Source: Mesorhizobium ventifaucium (lineage in GTDB: Bacteria; Pseudomonadota; Alphaproteobacteria; Rhizobiales; Rhizobiaceae). From it: a stretch of 64,000 nucleotides of DNA. Position 1 is the stretch's first letter. Every line of letters starts with the position of its first letter. The position numbers and the translations under genes were made by a program. Shown one piece after another: positions 22,117-29,499 of this stretch. Below the pieces are notes generated by a model. That model did not search any database. It was not told the DNA's origin and was given only the letters and a program-made list of their open reading frames with translations. Where the stretch lies: NCBI RefSeq assembly GCF_935822925.1, contig NZ_CAKXZS010000023.1, positions 186,001 through 250,000 on the forward strand. Direction: 5' to 3'.

Positions 22117-22554
22117 ATGTCCCTCAATCTCATAAAGCTCTGCGTTGGCTGCGACAGCGTCGAAGATCTCGAAGAGTGGATCGCCTTCCGCCTCGACGAA
22201 CGGCGGCGCGCCGGTGAACCGGTCGAGCACTACCACACCACCCGCATGACGCCGACGCGCGGCGCCGAGGTCACCGATGGCGGTTCCCTCTACTGGGTGA
22301 TCAAGGGCAATGTGCAATGCCGCCAGTTGATCACCGAAATCCGTCCTTTCACCGATGACGAGGGTATCGGCCGCTGTCGCCTGATCCTCGATCCCGCGGT
22401 CGTGCGCACTGAATGGCAGCCGCGCCGCGCCTTTCAAGGCTGGCGTTATTTGAAACCGTCGGACGCACCGGCCGATCTCGGCAAGGGCAAAGCGGGATTG
22501 GTCGAAATGCCGCCGAAACTCAGGCGCGAGCTTGCCGATCTCGGCCTTCTCTAG
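22117..22554 (+). CDS. DUF1489 family protein
   Basis: A 145-residue soluble protein starting MSLNLIKLCVGCDSVEDLEEW and containing the family's GGSLYWVIKGNVQCRQLI and PRRAFQGWRYLKPSDAP stretches. DUF1489 is restricted to alphaproteobacteria and is uncharacterised. It precedes the VWA/J-domain pair in the same direction. Confidence 0.88.
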   Translation: MSLNLIKLCVGCDSVEDLEEWIAFRLDERRRAGEPVEHYHTTRMTPTRGAEVTDGGSLYWVIKGNVQCRQLITEIRPFTDDEGIGRCRLILDPAVVRTEWQPRRAFQGWRYLKPSDAPADLGKGKAGLVEMPPKLRRELADLGLL

Positions 22555-22651: not shown

Positions 22652-23383
22652 ATGAGCGACAAGAAGCAGCCCGTGCCCGCAAAGGCCAATCCTGCGCCGG
22701 TCGAACCCCAATCGAGCACCGGCGAGATCGACGCGTTTATCCGTCAGGCAAGGACGCTCGCTGCGTCCGCGACCGGTACTGGCAGGCTGATCCTTTCCCT
22801 CGACGCGACTATGAGCCGCCAGCCGACCTGGGATCTCGCCTGTGCGCTGCAGGGCGAGATGTTCGACGCCGTCGGCAAGGCCGGGGCGCTCAAGGTCCAA
22901 CTGGTTTATTTTCGTGGTCTTGGCGAGTGCCGCTCATCCGCATTCGTCACCGATACGGACACGCTGAAGCAGCTGATGACGCGGATCGAATGCCGTAGCG
23001 GCCACACCCAGATCGGCAAGGTGCTGGCCCATGCGTTGAAACAGACGGCGGCGGCCAAGGTCAACGCGCTGGTCTATATCGGCGACGCGATGGAGGAAAA
23101 TATCGACGATCTGGCGGAAAAGGCCGGCAGTCTCGGCCTGCACGGCGTTCCTGTCTTCGTCTTTCAGGAGGGCCATGATGCCGGCGCGGAAAAGGCGTTC
23201 AAGGAAATTGCGCGGCTGTCCAAAGGGGCTTGGTTCCGATTTGATCGGCGGGCCGCCGCAACCTTGGCCAGCCTGCTGTCGGCGGTCGCCGTGTTTGCGA
23301 CGGGCGGGCTGAAGGCTCTGGAGGCCAGGGGCAGGCCGGAAGACCGGCTGATGATCGAGCATCTGCGGAGCGGCAGGAAATGA
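22652..23383 (+). CDS. VWA-like protein of unknown function, coupled to a membrane J-domain protein
   Basis: 243 residues starting MSDKKQPVPAK at 22652. The region from about residue 45 to 215 reads as a von Willebrand A fold: LILSLDATMSRQPTW gives a DxTxS MIDAS (D51, T53, S55), T119 lies in GHTQIG and D145 in VYIGDAME. The N-terminal 40 residues are Pro/Ala-rich and there is no signal peptide. Its stop overlaps the next gene by 4 bases, so the two products probably act together. Partners are unknown. Confidence 0.75.
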   Translation: MSDKKQPVPAKANPAPVEPQSSTGEIDAFIRQARTLAASATGTGRLILSLDATMSRQPTWDLACALQGEMFDAVGKAGALKVQLVYFRGLGECRSSAFVTDTDTLKQLMTRIECRSGHTQIGKVLAHALKQTAAAKVNALVYIGDAMEENIDDLAEKAGSLGLHGVPVFVFQEGHDAGAEKAFKEIARLSKGAWFRFDRRAAATLASLLSAVAVFATGGLKALEARGRPEDRLMIEHLRSGRK

Positions 23384-24081
23384 TGGGCGCGACTATCGCA
23401 TTCGTGGCGTTGCTTTTGGTGCTGCTCGGTGTGGCCACGGTGTTTCTGCGCGCCGACCCCGCGAAACTCGCAAGCGGGATGAGGACAGTTGGGCCCGTCC
23501 TGCTGGCGCTGGTCGGTGTCGCTGCGCTTCTGGTTGGACGCGAAGCCATCGGCGGCCTGATCCTGTCAACGGCGCTCGCCTGGTATGGCTCGATGCGGAT
23601 GAAGCGGCCGACGGCGAAACTGGAGCCGGGCAAGTATTCGACGGTGCGCACCGCGGCGCTCGAAATGGAGCTTGATCACGATACCGGCAGTCTGGAGGGC
23701 CTCGTGCTTGTCGGTCGCCATGAAGGCAAGATGCTAGGCACGATGAGCCTTGCGGAATTGCAGCAGCTTTATCGCGAACTCCCCGGCGACCCGGAGAGCC
23801 GCCAGCTGCTAGAGACGTATCTTGACGGCAGATTTCCCATCTGGCGCAAAGACGCTGAGGCGAATGGTGGCGACGGGCTGGGTGTTTCGCCAGGTTCGGG
23901 CGCCATGACTAAGGAGGAGGCCTACAAGATCCTTGGTCTTGAAGCGGGGGCCGCCGCGGCGGATGTCCGCAAGGCGCACCGCCGCCTGATGCAGCGCCTG
24001 CACCCCGATCTCGGCGGCACTTCTTTTCTGGCGGCGCGGATCAACGAAGCCAAGGACGTCTTGCTCTCCAATCACAACTAG
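23380..24081 (+). CDS. Membrane-anchored J-domain protein (Pam18/TIM14-like architecture)
   Basis: 233 residues: one hydrophobic helix at 5-22, a second region at 38-68 and a soluble middle. The C-terminal J domain spans about 174-233 (MTKEEAYKILGLEAG, then HPD at 208-210 and LGGTSFLAARINEAKDVLL). An HPD followed by GG/S in a C-terminal J domain is typical of mitochondrial Pam18 and its alphaproteobacterial relatives, which stimulate DnaK at the membrane. It overlaps the VWA-like gene by 4 bases. Confidence 0.85.
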   Translation: MMGATIAFVALLLVLLGVATVFLRADPAKLASGMRTVGPVLLALVGVAALLVGREAIGGLILSTALAWYGSMRMKRPTAKLEPGKYSTVRTAALEMELDHDTGSLEGLVLVGRHEGKMLGTMSLAELQQLYRELPGDPESRQLLETYLDGRFPIWRKDAEANGGDGLGVSPGSGAMTKEEAYKILGLEAGAAAADVRKAHRRLMQRLHPDLGGTSFLAARINEAKDVLLSNHN

Positions 24082-24125
24082 TCTCCTTCGACGCATAATT
24101 TTTCCGGGAGATGTTTCGACGCCTC

Positions 24126-25556
24126 CTACTGGTGGACGGCGTAGCACTCGATTTTCTTTTTCTTCAGGGCGTTGCAGGCTTTCCAGGCGGCAGTCTTCGA
24201 GCCAAAACCGAACCGGGCGCGGTAGTAGGTGACGCCGTCCTTTTCGAAGGCGACGGTGAAGCCCACAGCATCGGCCAGGACCGAAGGCGCCTGTTTGCTC
24301 ATCTCGTCCAGAAGAGCCTGGGCTTCGGACTGTTTTGGCGAAGAGGCGACCTGGACTGCCCAGCCGGACGGCACCGATGCCGTGTTGACGGGATCGACCG
24401 TTGCCGGTTCGGCATAGGCTGCTGCGACCCGTGCGGTCGCCACGTCGTCCGCCGTGGCCGCGGCCACTGTCTCGACCTTCCTGGTCTGAGAGACGGGCCT
24501 GGTCTCAACGACGGGGGTGGCTTCTTCAACGACGGGCTCGGTTTCCTCGACAAGGGAGGCAATGGCATCGGCGTCCGGGGCATCGTCGTCCGGGGCATCG
24601 CCGTCCGGCCTGCTGTCCGGCGTCGGCGCGTCGCGCTTGGGCAGGAATACTTTCGCCAGAGCGGTGATCGGGTTGCCACCACTGGCCTTGGCGATCAGCA
24701 TGCCGCTGCCGCGCGACGACGCCTTCGGCAGGTAGGTTTTGATCAATGCGGCCATCTGGTTGTCGCGGCTGCCGCCGGATTTCCCGCCTATGACCACCGC
24801 AACGATGCGGCGATCGCCGTCGTCGACCGAGGAGACGAGATTGTAGCCGGAGGCGCGGGTGTAGCCAGTCTTGATGCCGTCGACGCCCTTGATGCGTCCA
24901 AGCAGGCGGTTGTGGCCGTTGATGCGCCTGCGGCCGTAGAGAAAGGAACGCTGCGAGAAATAGCTGTAATACTGGGGAAAATGCTCCCGCAGCGCGATGC
25001 CGAGCACCGCCATGTCGCGCGCGGTGGTGAATTGACCGGGATTTGGCAAGCCGTGGGCGTTGCGGAAAACGGTCCCCTTCATGCCCAGTGCCCGCGCCTT
25101 GGCTGTCATCATGTGGGCGAAATTGGCTTCATTGCCGCCGAGAAGTTCGCCTAGCGCGGTTGCAGAGTCGTTTGCCGACTTGGTCACCATCGACAGGATC
25201 GCGGTCTCGACCGTGATCGCGCCGCCTCGTCTGACGCCGAGTTTGGTCGGCGGTTCGGCAGCAGCATTGGCCGAGAAGACGACCCGGGAGTTCTTGCTGA
25301 TCTTGCCGTTCGCCATGGCCTCGAAGGCCAGGTAAAGCGTCATCATCTTGGTGAGCGAGGCGGGATAGCGTCGGCCATCGGCATTCGAAGAGTAAAGCAC
25401 CTCGCCGGTCTTGGCGTCGATGACGATGGCCGCCGACCTCGCCGCCATGGACGAAGCAGCGTCGGCAACGACGAATGTCATCGCCAAAGCGAGGATCATG
25501 ATCGTTTTCAAAGAGGACGCGGATTTGGAGAGAATGCCCGACAACGCCTGACGCAC
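24126..25556 (-). CDS. D-alanyl-D-alanine carboxypeptidase with C-terminal SPOR domain
   Basis: 476 residues, a low-molecular-weight penicillin-binding protein (peptidase S11). The active-site motifs are S67-LTK, S127-AN and K229-TG (GIKTGYTRASGYN). A signal sequence covers residues 1-39. A Glu/Thr/Val-rich linker from about 300 to 390 leads to a SPOR domain (WAVQVASSPKQSEAQALL) that binds denuded peptidoglycan and targets the septum. The start is GTG at 25556 with AAAGGAA upstream. The linker includes a short duplicated DAPDDDAPDAD stretch. It trims pentapeptides in the cell wall. Confidence 0.92.
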   Translation of the reverse strand: MRQALSGILSKSASSLKTIMILALAMTFVVADAASSMAARSAAIVIDAKTGEVLYSSNADGRRYPASLTKMMTLYLAFEAMANGKISKNSRVVFSANAAAEPPTKLGVRRGGAITVETAILSMVTKSANDSATALGELLGGNEANFAHMMTAKARALGMKGTVFRNAHGLPNPGQFTTARDMAVLGIALREHFPQYYSYFSQRSFLYGRRRINGHNRLLGRIKGVDGIKTGYTRASGYNLVSSVDDGDRRIVAVVIGGKSGGSRDNQMAALIKTYLPKASSRGSGMLIAKASGGNPITALAKVFLPKRDAPTPDSRPDGDAPDDDAPDADAIASLVEETEPVVEEATPVVETRPVSQTRKVETVAAATADDVATARVAAAYAEPATVDPVNTASVPSGWAVQVASSPKQSEAQALLDEMSKQAPSVLADAVGFTVAFEKDGVTYYRARFGFGSKTAAWKACNALKKKKIECYAVHQ

Positions 25557-25758
25557 CGATGGTTCCTTTGAATTTTTGTTGCGGTGGAGGCGGCAAAGGG
25601 GTCCTGCCTCACTTCAAGCCAAGCTATCGCAGCCAGCGTTACCAATCCGTTTATGGTAACCGCGGCGTTCACCATTTTCTTCGAGCTTGAGCTTTTCTTT
25701 ATTCGAATTTTAGCACTACCCAATGGTTGCGCCGATTTGCTGGCCGGATGGCTGGGGC

Positions 25759-25790
25759 CGCACCCGGTGAAACCCGCACTCGGTGAAACC
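25759..25790. repeat. 16-bp tandem duplication upstream of the phasin promoter
   Basis: CGCACCCGGTGAAACC (25759-25774) is followed at once by CGCACTCGGTGAAACC (25775-25790), with one mismatch. It abuts the -35 box of the phasin promoter. The rest of the gap between the carboxypeptidase start (25556) and here is AT-richer and shows no gene. Confidence 0.9.
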
Positions 25791-25835
25791 TTGACTTTTG
25801 TGCAGTGCACAATATATTACCTGCATTGCACAACG
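25791..25835 (+). promoter_or_regulatory. Phasin promoter with overlapping TGC/GCA-rich palindrome (candidate PhaR operator)
   Basis: TTGACT (25791-25796) and TATATT (25813-25818) are separated by 16 bases, a strong housekeeping promoter. The spacer holds GTGCAGTGCAC (25800-25810), and CTGCATTGCACA follows at 25821-25832. TGC/GCA-rich sites are the known targets of PhaR, the PHB-responsive repressor of phasin genes. PhaR binding here is inferred, not shown. Confidence 0.55.
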
Positions 25836-25892
25836 CGGCCCGGGACAAGGCCGCGCCCACCGCTCAAGGACAACTGTCAAGGGATTGCGTGA

Positions 25893-26222
25893 ATGACCCA
25901 GACCTATGAGGATTTCAGCAAGTACGGCAAGGAGTTTGCCGACACCGGCTTGAAGAGCTTCGCATCCCTTTCCAAGGGTGCGCAGGCTATCGCCACCGAG
26001 GCGGGCGAGTACACCAAGAAAAGCTTCGAGGCCGGCAGCGCAGCAGCCGAGAAACTTTTGTCGGCCAAGTCGCTGGAGAAAGCGATCGAGATCCAGTCCG
26101 ATTTTGCCAGGCAGTCGTACGAAGCCTTCGTCACCGAAGCCACCAAGTTCAGTGATCTCTATGCCGAACTCGCCAAGGAAGCCTACAAGCCATTCGAATC
26201 AATGGTCGCAAAGGCGAAATAA
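25893..26222 (+). CDS. Phasin family protein (PHB granule coat)
   Basis: A 109-residue, almost entirely helical amphipathic protein: YEDFSKYGKEFADTGLKSFAS, KSLEKAIEIQSDFARQSYEAF and FSDLYAELAKEAYKPFESM. This is the phasin 2 pattern. It coats poly-3-hydroxybutyrate granules and sets their number and size. It is a single gene with a strong promoter and a strong terminator, as expected for an abundant protein. Confidence 0.92.
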   Translation: MTQTYEDFSKYGKEFADTGLKSFASLSKGAQAIATEAGEYTKKSFEAGSAAAEKLLSAKSLEKAIEIQSDFARQSYEAFVTEATKFSDLYAELAKEAYKPFESMVAKAK

Positions 26223-26266
26223 TCTCGCTATAAGATGTGAGCACGGCCCTTGGGCCTGCAAGACGG

Positions 26267-26297
26267 ACCCGGTCGCGAACGTGCGGCCGGGTTTTTT
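26267..26297 (+). terminator. Intrinsic terminator of the phasin gene
   Basis: ACCCGGTCGC (26267-26276) pairs with GCGGCCGGGT (26283-26292), ten base pairs with one G-T wobble. The loop is GAACGT and a run of six T follows (26292-26297). It lies 44 bases after the phasin stop. Confidence 0.92.
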
Positions 26298-26622
26298 CAT
26301 GGGAATTTTTCGGCTCCGGCACTAAGCGTCAGATTTTCACCACTAGGTGTGTCCTGCCCTGACAGACTCGCTGGCCCCTAAAGCGCGTCTGAAGGGATCA
26401 TGCGACGCGCTCCAGGTTCGTTGTCATATGCATGTCGTTCGTTAGCTGACGCATTCACGATAAACCGTAAGTGCTCCACGCCTGTCGGATCGTGCCGATG
26501 CCCTCGATTTTGAAATCAGGGGCTCTGCTGCCTTCACGATTTCGAAAAATCGGTCAAGTTTGGCCACCTAGCCATATTGTCAGCTAAACAGAAGGGCTTA
26601 AAATCATTCATCGAACACCTAC
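26298..26622. other. Intergenic stretch between phasin terminator and clpS, with a rhizobial palindromic element
   Basis: No gene is seen in about 325 bases. AGCGCGTC (26382-26389) and GACGCGCT (26404-26411) form a perfect 8-bp stem, followed by the word GCATGTCGTT at about 26430-26439. This combination resembles a palindromic element I recall as frequent between rhizobial genes. The clpS promoter occupies the right end. Confidence 0.6.
26577..26604 (+). promoter_or_regulatory. Predicted promoter of clpS-clpA
   Basis: TTGTCA (26577-26582) and TAAAAT (26599-26604) are separated by 16 bases. Transcription would begin near 26611, only about 12 bases before the first possible clpS ATG. This suggests a nearly leaderless mRNA or use of a later start codon. 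Confidence 0.5.
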
Positions 26623-27027
26623 ATGTCGAACTCGCATGGGGATTCGAAAAGGCAGGGTTACGTGACTACAGGTTTGACTGCCACAACAGATGTGGTGCGG
26701 ATGCAAAACGGCAGCGACGGCAACGAAACCGGTCGCGGCACGGCTGTCATCACGCGCACCAAAACCAAGACCAAGAAGCCTAGCCTTTATCGGGTCCTCA
26801 TTCTCAACGACGACTACACACCCATGGAATTCGTGGTTCACGTGCTGGAGCGTTTTTTCCAGAAGGACCGTGAAGCCGCCACACGCATCATGCTACATGT
26901 TCACAATCATGGAGTGGGCGAGTGCGGGGTCTATACATTCGAGGTGGCCGAGACCAAAGTGTCTCAGGTCATGGATTTCGCCCGACAGAATCAGCATCCG
27001 CTGCAATGCGTGATGGAGAAGAAGTGA
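26623..27027 (+). CDS. clpS: ATP-dependent Clp protease adaptor ClpS
   Basis: 134 residues. The ClpS core (about 50-134) is intact: [25 protein letters not shown], then [21 protein letters not shown]. The NDDYTPM region and the following Met/Val residues form the N-degron pocket. ClpS hands substrates with destabilising N-terminal residues to ClpA. The first 45 residues are extra and poorly conserved. Met at 26701 ([11 protein letters not shown]) is an alternative start. clpA begins 7 bases after the stop. Confidence 0.93.
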
Positions 27028-27033
27028 GGTAAC

Positions 27034-29499
27034 ATGCCGGCTTTCTCCCAAGGCCTGGAAAAGGCGCTTCACCAGGCGCTGACGCTCGCCAATGAGCGGC
27101 ACCACGAATACGCAACCCTTGAACATTTGCTGCTCGCGCTCATCGACGACACCGAGGCGGCCGCGGTCATGCGCGCCTGCAACGTCGATCTTGACGAGTT
27201 GAAGCATACGGTTCTCACCTACATCGACACCGAGCTCGATAATCTCGTTACCGGCTATGACGAGGATTCCAAGCCGACGGCCGGTTTCCAGCGCGTCATC
27301 CAGCGCGCGGTGATCCATGTGCAGTCGTCCGGCCGCGAGGAGGTCTCCGGCGCCAACGTGCTCGTTGCCATCTTCGCCGAGCGCGAGAGCCATGCCGCCT
27401 ATTTTCTGCAAGAACAGCAGATGACCCGCTACGACGCGGTCAACTACATTTCGCATGGCATCGCCAAGCGGCCCGGCGCATCCGAGACGCGGTCGCCGCG
27501 CGGCGCCGATGACGAGCAGGGCCAGAGCGGCGCCGAGCCGCAAGAGGACGGCGGCAAGAAAAAGCAGCAGCAGGACGCGCTGACCGCCTATTGCGTCAAT
27601 CTGAACAACAAGGCCAAGGCCGGCAAGATCGATCCGCTGATCGGGCGCGAGTCCGAGATCAACCGCACCATCCAGGTGCTGTGCCGCCGTTCCAAGAACA
27701 ATCCGCTCTATGTCGGCGACCCCGGCGTCGGCAAGACGGCGATCGCCGAAGGCCTCGCCAAGCGCATCGTCGAGGGCGACGTGCCGGAAGTGCTGCATAA
27801 CGCCACCATCTTCGCGCTCGACATGGGAACATTGCTGGCCGGCACCCGCTATCGCGGCGATTTCGAGGAGCGGCTGAAGCAGGTCGTCAAGGAGCTCGAG
27901 GATTATCCGGGCGCGGTTCTGTTCATCGACGAGATCCATACCGTGATCGGGGCAGGGGCGACGTCTGGCGGCGCCATGGATGCGTCGAACCTGTTGAAGC
28001 CGGCGCTGTCGTCCGGAACGATCCGCTGCATCGGCTCGACCACCTACAAGGAGTTCCGCCAGTTCTTCGAGAAAGACCGCGCCTTGGTGCGGCGCTTCCA
28101 GAAGATCGACGTCAACGAACCTACCATCGAGGACGCCATCGAGATCATGAAGGGTCTCAAGCCGTATTTCGAGGAGTTCCACAAGGTTCGCTACACGTCT
28201 GAGGCGATCAAGGCTTCGGTTGAACTGTCGGCGCGCTACATCAACGACCGCAAGCTGCCGGACAAGGCGATCGACGTGATCGACGAGACCGGCGCCTCGC
28301 AAATGCTGGTGCCGGAGGCCAAGCGCAAGAAGACCATCGGCATCAAGGAGATCGAAGCGACGATCGCCACCATCGCTCGCATTCCGCCGAAGACGGTTTC
28401 CGCCGACGACGAGAAGGTGCTGGCCGGTCTCGATGTCGAGCTGAAGCGCGTCGTTTACGGTCAGGACACCGCGATCACGGCTTTGACCTCGGCGATCAAG
28501 CTGGCGCGGGCCGGCCTGCGCGAACCGGAGAAGCCGATCGGCTCCTACCTGTTCTCGGGGCCGACCGGCGTCGGCAAGACCGAAGTGGCAAAGCAGCTCG
28601 CCGCCTCGCTCGGTGTCGAACTGATCCGCTTCGACATGTCCGAATATATGGAACGCCACACCGTCTCACGGCTGATCGGCGCGCCTCCCGGCTATGTCGG
28701 CTTCGACCAGGGCGGCTTGTTGACCGACGGCGTCGACCAGCATCCGCATTGCGTGCTGTTGCTGGACGAGGTCGAGAAGGCGCATCCGGATCTGTTCAAC
28801 ATCCTGTTGCAGGTCATGGACCATGGCAAGCTGACCGACCACAACGGCAAGCAGATCGACTTCCGCAATGTCATCCTGATCATGACCACGAATGCGGGCG
28901 CCTCGGATGCGCAGCGCGCGGCGATCGGTTTCGGCTCGACCAAGCGCGAAGGCGACGATGTCGAGGCGATCAACCGGCTGTTCACGCCGGAGTTCCGCAA
29001 CCGTCTCGATGCGATCATCCCGTTCGGCTCGCTGCCGGTGCCGGTCATTCACCAGGTGGTGCAGAAGTTCGTCATGCAGCTCGAGGCCCAGCTCTCCGAG
29101 CGTGGCGTCACCTTCGACCTGTCGCAGGAGGCGATCGCTTGGCTGGCCGAGAAGGGCTATGACGAGCGCATGGGAGCACGGCCGCTCGGCCGCGTCATCC
29201 AGGAGCACATCAAGAAGCCGCTGGCCGACGAGGTGCTGTTCGGCAAGCTCAAGAAGGGCGGCACGGTGCGTGTCACCGTCGAGAAGAAAGAGACTGGCGA
29301 AACCGGGCTGAAGCTTGAGTCGCTCGCCGACGAGGCGCCGGTCAGGCCGAAGAAGGAAGAACCGGACGACACGCCAAAACCCAAGAAAGCTGCCGGCAAG
29401 AAGCCCGCCGCGAAAAAGGCGATCGCGCAGAAGCCGGAGCCCAAGGGCAAGGATGGCAGCAAGCGCAGCCTGGTGCCGCAACTGCCCCGCAAGGGATGA
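27034..29499 (+). CDS. clpA: ATP-dependent Clp protease ATP-binding subunit ClpA
   Basis: An 821-residue class I AAA+ unfoldase, partner of ClpP. The N-domain (1-145) with Clp repeats is followed by the first AAA module (Walker A GDPGVGKT, Walker [10 protein letters not shown]), the second ([16 protein letters not shown]) and the C-terminal D2-small domain. The last 50 residues or so are a Lys/Pro/Ala-rich tail ([17 protein letters not shown]) beyond the E. coli length of about 758. It is co-transcribed with clpS, a common arrangement. Confidence 0.97.

Follow-up and report, generated by a model that had tools for sequence, protein, structure and literature searches.

On the minus strand of the window, the 64,000-nucleotide stretch of Mesorhizobium ventifaucium DNA analyzed here, a small open reading frame (ORF) lies opposite the end of a gene for a membrane J-domain protein, with its codons in exact register with J codons 232 to 144. 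On the comparative evidence presented below, we regard this antisense ORF as a real gene, one that looks born by overprinting the older J gene and that then appears to have outlived its parent. In our judgement, it is a more surprising result than the gene pair flagged by the initial annotation, namely the J gene and the gene for a VWA-domain protein that precedes it. By genome comparison, this pair was confirmed as a widely common, functionally linked module of the Alphaproteobacteria. The explanation that we consider likely joins the two results, with a VWA-J module that would use DnaK and an antisense gene that would have arisen on J and persisted after J was lost. The antisense gene and a middle part of the J protein are new relative to the first reading of the sequence. 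Our comparisons covered a same-genus sample of 146 genomes (referred to below as Mesorhizobium or the genus), a family sample of 161 genomes and a class sample of 289 genomes.

The locus and its two plus-strand proteins

The gene order in the window is sdaA, DUF1489, VWA and J on the plus strand, a convergent dac on the minus strand, and then phasin-like, clpS and clpA on the plus strand (Table 1). The names phasin, clpS and clpA are our presumptive assignments from the sequences themselves. The four-base overlap of the two genes, already noticed in the initial annotation, is correct, as the VWA and J ORFs share ATGA (23380-23383), suggesting that they are probably translationally coupled. The nearest named relatives were Mesorhizobium, with a VWA identity of up to 99%. 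Synteny of the neighbors was followed by tblastn with ten proteins of the window, and all-against-all ORF clustering was dropped because it mixed real genes and shadow ORFs. Downstream of the pair (24126-29499), dac was found in 67, the phasin-like gene in 51, clpS in 50 and clpA in 49 of the best 80 named loci, some of which were too short.

Table 1. Features of the locus, in positions of the window.
Feature	Position	Strand	Details
DUF1489 gene	22117..22554	+	upstream neighbor, conserved: 58/80 named loci
VWA-domain protein gene	22652..23383	+	243 aa; ATG 22652, TGA 23381-23383
Membrane J-domain protein gene	23380..24081	+	233 aa; ATG 23380, TAG 24079-24081
N-terminal helical, membrane-inserting part of the J protein	23380..23601	+	residues 1-74
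Middle part of the J protein	23635..23865	+	residues about 86-162; strands then helices
J domain	23911..24075	+	residues 178-232
HPD codons CAC CCC GAT	24001..24009	+	J residues 208-210
Antisense gene	23809..24075	-	GTG 24075-24073, TAG 23811-23809; 88 aa; pI 11.6
AAGGAG ribosome-binding-like site	24083..24088	-	7 nt before the antisense start
dac (D-Ala-D-Ala carboxypeptidase with SPOR domain)	24126..25556	-	adjoins the antisense gene upstream, same strand; 50 bp gap

The sequence signal of the VWA protein is weak. Pfam VWA_3 was matched with an E-value of 0.0045, under the Pfam cutoff, no Pfam or NCBIfam model matched at its cutoff, and no sequence match was found in the PDB. The predicted structure (mean pLDDT of 74, with residues 1-41 of low confidence) had as its top structural match 8ebu_E, a chain of the TFIIH repair complex (Z 18.9, rmsd 2.4, 172 aligned; VIA), followed by Rpn10 (8jtk_B, Z 17.6) and BatB (3ibs_A, Z 17.3), and its best Foldseek E-value was 9e-8, which we took as assigning the protein to the VWA fold. 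The MIDAS residues D51-x-T53-x-S55, T119 and D145 were complete in all 108 VWA sequences of the class sample, a set collected without use of the MIDAS motif. The VWA-like protein with a MIDAS-like site that had been read from the letters is thus borne out by the model and by these five residues, and the loss of the residues in homologues, which had been named as counting against it, was not seen. In 56 named VWA sequences all five positions were invariant save for one Ser at 119, which is no fair test since this set was fished with peptides that include the MIDAS residues. Cys93 (22928-22930) and Cys114 (22991-22993) are Cys in 54 and 55 of the 56, respectively; among the 108 class sequences, Cys114 is present in 103, and position 93 is mostly occupied by Phe (56) or Cys (44). 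The protein shares the VWA fold with BatB, Rpn10 and the TFIIH subunits and has a complete MIDAS but, unlike them, its partner gene encodes a membrane J protein.

The J domain scored above the Pfam cutoff (PF00226, 30.4 vs. 27.8 bits), and the best PDB sequence match of the J protein was yeast Tim14 (E-value of 7.5e-8). In the model, helices 2-24, 27-51 and 55-74 are followed by a separate strand-and-helix part and then by the J domain. By hydrophobicity, the protein has one strong membrane segment (1-28) and one weaker (30-63). The Pam18-like build proposed earlier therefore stands for the membrane-anchored N-terminus and for the C-terminal J domain with HPD, both of which resemble Pam18/Tim14. 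It does not stand for the rest since, unlike in Pam18/Tim14, where one membrane helix directly precedes a C-terminal J domain, the protein has two or three N-terminal helices (three are predicted), a middle part of ~80 residues and a VWA neighbor. TimB is a bacterial Tim14-like protein with a membrane anchor and a J domain. In their lack of HPD, the HPD-less J descendants described below are comparable to Pam16. A fold search of the whole J model (Foldseek) returned matches of weight for the J domain alone, the other rows being at chance level. The middle part, covered here as a piece of the whole model, is not claimed as a new fold. The start and end of this middle part are among the better conserved stretches in VWA-bearing sequences. 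These ends are also a candidate docking site for the VWA protein.

Pairing of the VWA and J genes and retention of HPD

In the class sample, 107 genomes carried VWA (109 copies), 116 carried a long J among the matches listed, and 106 carried both; the J genomes were chosen among the matches listed, as far down as an E-value of 1.5e-28, by a match that extends past the J domain itself. In 102 of the 109 copies, VWA is immediately followed by J on the same strand. Five of the seven other copies lie apart from J, one (G224) ends at a contig end with its neighbor unseen, and the last (G144) comes from a genome with 10% contamination in which no long J was matched and the VWA match contains a stop. 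Of the best 80 named loci, 79 have J next after VWA, and the contig of the 80th ends there. The family sample contained 70 genomes with both genes, none with VWA only, 6 with J only and 85 with neither. In the genus sample, 53 intact VWA genes and one remnant were found along with 142 full-length J genes, leaving 89 J genes without VWA. Hence, J occurred without VWA in 10/116 class genomes (among the matches listed, one J match being cut by a contig end), 6/76 family genomes and 89/142 genus genomes, while VWA occurred without J in 1/107 (among the matches listed), 0/70 and 0/53, respectively. Frequent separation of the two genes had been named beforehand as evidence against the pair; J is indeed often found without VWA, but the converse is hardly ever seen. 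Co-occurrence across the alphaproteobacteria, which had been suggested as a check, amounts to 106 of 107 VWA genomes in the class (among the matches listed) and 70 of 70 in the family, supporting a functional pairing of the VWA-fold and membrane J proteins.

J stayed between DUF1489 and dac in 18/18 VWA-less loci mapped, and L043-L049 and L404 still contain, upstream of J, a fragment of VWA from its 3' part (faintest in L048), indicating that VWA was deleted in place. The VWA gene was also found on large replicons of Azospirillum, Microvirga and Methylobacterium, and in the Microvirga record NZ_CP069359.1 it is annotated together with a DnaJ domain-containing protein. In the literature collection searched, the entries listed for a VWA-J pair and for bacterial Tim14-like proteins included nothing on this locus.

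VWA proteins frequently partner AAA+ ATPases, and clpS and clpA are a few genes off in 50 and 49 of the best 80 named loci (some loci end earlier), from which it could be argued that VWA belongs to a MoxR or Clp machine and that J is merely a neighbor. We consider this improbable, as VWA is more closely tied to J (adjacent in 79 of 80 loci, the last contig ending there) and as dac and phasin separate the pair from the Clp genes. No AAA+ ATPase gene was found in the same operon, the immediate neighbors in the window being DUF1489, J and the convergent dac.

Where a VWA partner was present, the HPD motif of J was read in 40/40 Mesorhizobium proteins and 178/183 others; of the five first unreadable at this site, four proved to have HPD and one (L024) is cut by a contig end. 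J genes without VWA kept HPD in 41/89 cases in Mesorhizobium and in 10/14 others. Counting distinct J proteins, HPD was present in 214/214 with VWA vs. 49/100 without VWA. For these counts, 323 J sequences were reduced to 314 by removing identical ones, repeats of genomes already counted being excluded (L031-L042, L061, L091-L100), and L024 and L269 (cut by contig ends) as well as L268 (match of only 147 aa) were left out before the tree. A protein tree was built using FastTree with the HPD columns omitted, and losses were mapped by Dollo parsimony, which gave 15 VWA losses and 8 HPD losses. All eight HPD losses fell on VWA-less branches, which represent 13.6% of the tree length (naive chance of 1e-7), several of them being close together in Mesorhizobium. 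An independent-pairs test of VWA loss vs. HPD loss was not significant, with 5 usable pairs and HPD differing in 1 or 2 of them. Since six of the eight HPD losses map to the same branch as a VWA loss, the order of loss is not shown for these; the order of VWA before HPD comes from the two other events and from the many VWA-less genomes that still have HPD.

We also compared the selection acting on J outside the region overlapped by the antisense gene. In the main HPD-less clade (41 genes), dN/dS was 0.227 over codons 4-75 and 0.103 over codons 84-142, vs. 0.234 and 0.066 for J with VWA and 0.395 and 0.140 for a mixed VWA-less set that bears HPD. Only these two codon ranges were used, as J-domain dN/dS by group looked like strong constraint and is unreadable in a dual-coded region. 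Outside the overlap, J thus remains under constraint in the main HPD-less clade, suggesting that this clade retains the protein but not its DnaK contact.

The finding of HPD loss only in VWA-less lineages, among those examined, favors DnaK recruitment as the shared job of the pair, and in the simplest reading VWA and DnaK recruitment would belong to one job. In the mechanism that we propose, the J protein would be anchored in the inner membrane, its J domain facing the cytosol, and would call DnaK, while the VWA protein would bind the J protein or its client through MIDAS and decide what DnaK acts on. With VWA gone, DnaK recruitment would no longer be needed and HPD could erode, the membrane and middle parts staying under purifying selection. 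From these comparisons, VWA probably works through the DnaK contact of the J protein, and the DnaK role of the pair is plausible but unproven.

HPD loss without VWA could instead reflect the general decay of a dispensable J protein, with no link between VWA and DnaK. The raised dN/dS of the VWA-less HPD-bearing set over both codon ranges, compared with J with VWA, fits such decay, as does the small number of independent HPD-loss events, but the main HPD-less clade is about as constrained as J with VWA (0.227 vs. 0.234, and 0.103 vs. 0.066 in the middle part), and we find decay possible but rather unlikely. The VWA protein could also be a client assembled or inserted by J and DnaK, and not their adaptor. 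The one-sided dependence, with VWA hardly ever without J and J often without VWA, fits a client equally well. Against it, the complete MIDAS in 108/108 sequences suggests that VWA itself binds a partner, which is not decisive, and a client role for VWA appears doubtful to us. The reading that we retain is that of VWA and DnaK recruitment acting together through J.

The antisense frame opposite the J domain

Synonymous divergence of J collapses in the last third of the gene. When VWA-plus and HPD-less Mesorhizobium were compared at identical residues, the same codon was used in 39 to 61% of cases per ten-codon block up to codon 143; beyond J codon 143, this share was 88%, 62% and then 87-100% over codons 164-213. 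The median per-codon synonymous identity in VWA-plus Mesorhizobium was 1.00 inside vs. 0.66 outside the antisense region (p = 2e-16). By the same measure, the HPD-less clade had 1.00 in this region vs. 0.69 outside, and the other genera of the family 0.64 vs. 0.44 (p = 9e-9). No constrained block was found in Hyphomicrobiales J genes without the antisense ORF (0.381 for codons 176-206 vs. 0.411 for codons 84-140) or in J of the class sample (0.392 vs. 0.386).

This constraint has a codon phase. In the linker (J codons 163-175) of Mesorhizobium, the mean pairwise difference was 0.204, 0.011 and 0.047 at positions 1, 2 and 3, respectively; over J codons 84-142 it was 0.143, 0.104 and 0.449. A free position 1 with positions 2 and 3 frozen points to a second reading frame for which J position 1 is the wobble base. 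The same wobble position would be expected of a plus-strand frame shifted by one, and no plus-strand ORF of at least 80 aa besides J covers the region.

The limits of the frame are conserved as well. An antisense ORF of 88-91 aa, starting at most six codons from the J stop, was present in 122/122 Mesorhizobium and 29/29 other family J genes, with its start conserved as GTG/ATG. Its stop corresponds to CTA/TTA at J codon 141, 143 or 144 in 151/151 family J genes. These two codons represent 1.3% (41/3,052) of the Leu codons within J codons 4-140 in Mesorhizobium and 2.7% (20/754) in other genera, and they are absent from J codons 145-231. A motif like AAGGAG was found opposite J in 121/123 Mesorhizobium rows and 17/29 other family rows. 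An inverted repeat TCTCC...GGGAGA (24082-24115) surrounds the antisense ribosome-binding-like site in many Mesorhizobium rows and could hide this site in a hairpin of a dac-antisense transcript. Searches of Pfam and NCBIfam revealed no family above chance for the antisense protein, and in the literature collection searched, the entries listed for an antisense gene opposite a J gene included nothing on this locus. Recombination or an integration site was also considered as the origin of the frozen stretch; neither would account for the codon phase, the raised identity between genera or the free copies described below.

Free copies of the antisense gene and its origin

A profile of the antisense product matched in 152/161 family genomes, which correspond to 76/76 genomes with J and 76/85 without J; these 85 genomes also lack VWA. 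In 20/20 J-less loci that were fetched, an antisense-family gene was behind dac on the same strand. The recognized dac end was within about 250 bp of the free gene in 19/20 loci (in L369, a partial dac match ended 744 bp short), and DUF1489 was recognizable on its other side in 17/20. Among the 25 closest pairs of free genes, those that are unsaturated had dN/dS of 0.05-0.57, and pN was below pS in 190/190 pairs, indicating purifying selection on the antisense-family gene. The frame opposite the free genes carries stops in 14/20 loci. Three complete genomes of the genus without full-length J (G013, G516, G531) also keep the antisense gene behind dac. One more genome of the genus, G597 (79% complete), lacks both J and the antisense gene and was counted as uninformative.

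A relative of the antisense protein is already annotated in Sinorhizobium meliloti Ak57 as a hypothetical protein (UIJ96376.1, LZK74_23845), with 51% identity over residues 21-88. Like the antisense gene, its gene comes directly after the carboxypeptidase gene; unlike it, only a faint J match and no full-length J gene is found opposite. No VWA was found in the 12-kb stretch around this free gene. An ISRm16 transposase is located between it and DUF1489. The record, CP090106.1, is titled plasmid pSymB (3.72 Mb) and carries dac, DUF1489 and a serine ammonia-lyase gene, and it may be a mislabelled chromosome. In the main-text passages searched of an S. meliloti small-protein paper (PMC10117765), neither "carboxypeptidase" nor "DUF1489" was found.

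In the class sample, the antisense profile (HMM A6) matched in 85/289 genomes in all, mostly far more weakly than in the family. Its matches there include weak mirror images of ordinary J domains on the opposite strand, which are often interrupted, some of them by stops. A profile match opposite a J domain is therefore no evidence by itself, and in our assessment the case for the antisense gene is built on the codon phase, on the start and stop, and on the J-less genomes.

The third positions of J could instead be frozen by a structured RNA or DNA element, as synonymous constraint alone does not specify a protein and the inverted repeat flanks the start region in many rows. We hold this to be very unlikely, given that the constraint is phased and bounded by a conserved stop and a conserved GTG/ATG, that free copies without full-length J opposite have dN/dS of 0.05-0.57 (unsaturated close pairs), and that Rfam revealed no family over the region (two chance-level matches were found elsewhere). 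A non-coding frame left open by chance in a GC-rich genome would be more improbable still. Antisense frames in this register are often open, with far longer ones in the class, but here the start and stop are the same in 151/151 genes, the stop falls on rare Leu codons, and the gene is found free in 76/85 J-less family genomes and behind dac in 20/20 fetched loci.

In favor of the antisense gene, the J-less genomes also answer a more general objection. Antisense-strand conservation can follow from the mother gene, according to a review (PMC7457138), and genomes that lack J and keep the antisense gene meet this point here. Published accounts describe four antisense overlapping genes of Escherichia coli O157:H7 (ano, asa, laoB and pop), of which laoB was explained by overprinting, and ano and asa were based on RNA-seq and ribosome profiling. 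As with these four, the gene studied here is a protein gene opposite a known gene; unlike ano and asa, it is known through a family-wide evolutionary signature and free copies without the mother gene.

Of 163 J genes from beyond the family set, 20 carried an antisense ORF of suitable size and 143 did not. The named records among these 20, all Hyphomicrobiales-type, include Pseudolabrys, Rhodoplanes, Stappia and Bauldia. Nine of the 20, grouped as Xanthobacteraceae-like, had a constrained block (0.717 for codons 176-206 vs. 0.579 outside). Taken together, 19 outside J genes (L274 was left out of the synonymous comparison) were weakly constrained, with 0.572 vs. 0.548, and 0.706 for codons 145-162. 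From this mixed signal, we place the origin of the antisense gene within Hyphomicrobiales with moderate confidence. J domains are generally regarded as universal, and the present J gene occurs throughout the class (116/289, among the matches listed), which makes J the older frame. On the far strand, several free genes have kept some likeness to a J domain, with E-values of 2e-8 to 7e-5 in L361, L365, L369 and L377 and, by tblastn, of 3e-10 to 7e-6 in L401 and L405-L407, though no full-length J gene. Such a faint J is predicted if the mother gene was lost after overprinting.

The antisense frame over J codons 144-232 would thus have overprinted J in a Hyphomicrobiales ancestor and then outlived it in many family members, giving a basic protein of 88-91 aa that is probably read from the dac transcript. 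We would guess that this small protein works together with dac at the envelope. We regard as highly probable the joint reading in which this overprinting took place on the end of an older J domain in Hyphomicrobiales, the region has been dual-coded since, the second frame limits J mutation after VWA loss, and the antisense gene has persisted across the family, including Sinorhizobium, in a free form linked to dac after its mother gene was lost.

The two frames may also influence each other. The commonest HPD replacement, AAC GCC GAT (NAD), leaves the antisense Ile-Gly-Val unchanged, and I/V-G-V is kept on the antisense strand in 39/50 HPD-less family J genes, most of which represent one clade. 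Counted by event, four of the seven family HPD losses keep I/V-G-V (the NAD clade, NPD, YPD and DSD/DTD) and three do not (GSD/GSE, HPG and QPD), which weakens the claim, so that a channelling of HPD loss by the antisense frame is suggestive only. Mutual regulation is possible as well, through the 267-nt complementarity of the J mRNA and the putative antisense transcript.

Bacterial antisense overlapping genes are disputed, and annotation programs exclude them. This locus comes with a natural control, as related genomes without the mother gene retain the antisense gene at the same place and under purifying selection. It would thereby become possible, at one locus of easily grown rhizobia, to test overprinting as the mode of birth, dual coding and the escape of a gene from its parent, and the tie between VWA and HPD may serve as a natural experiment on why a membrane J protein needs DnaK.
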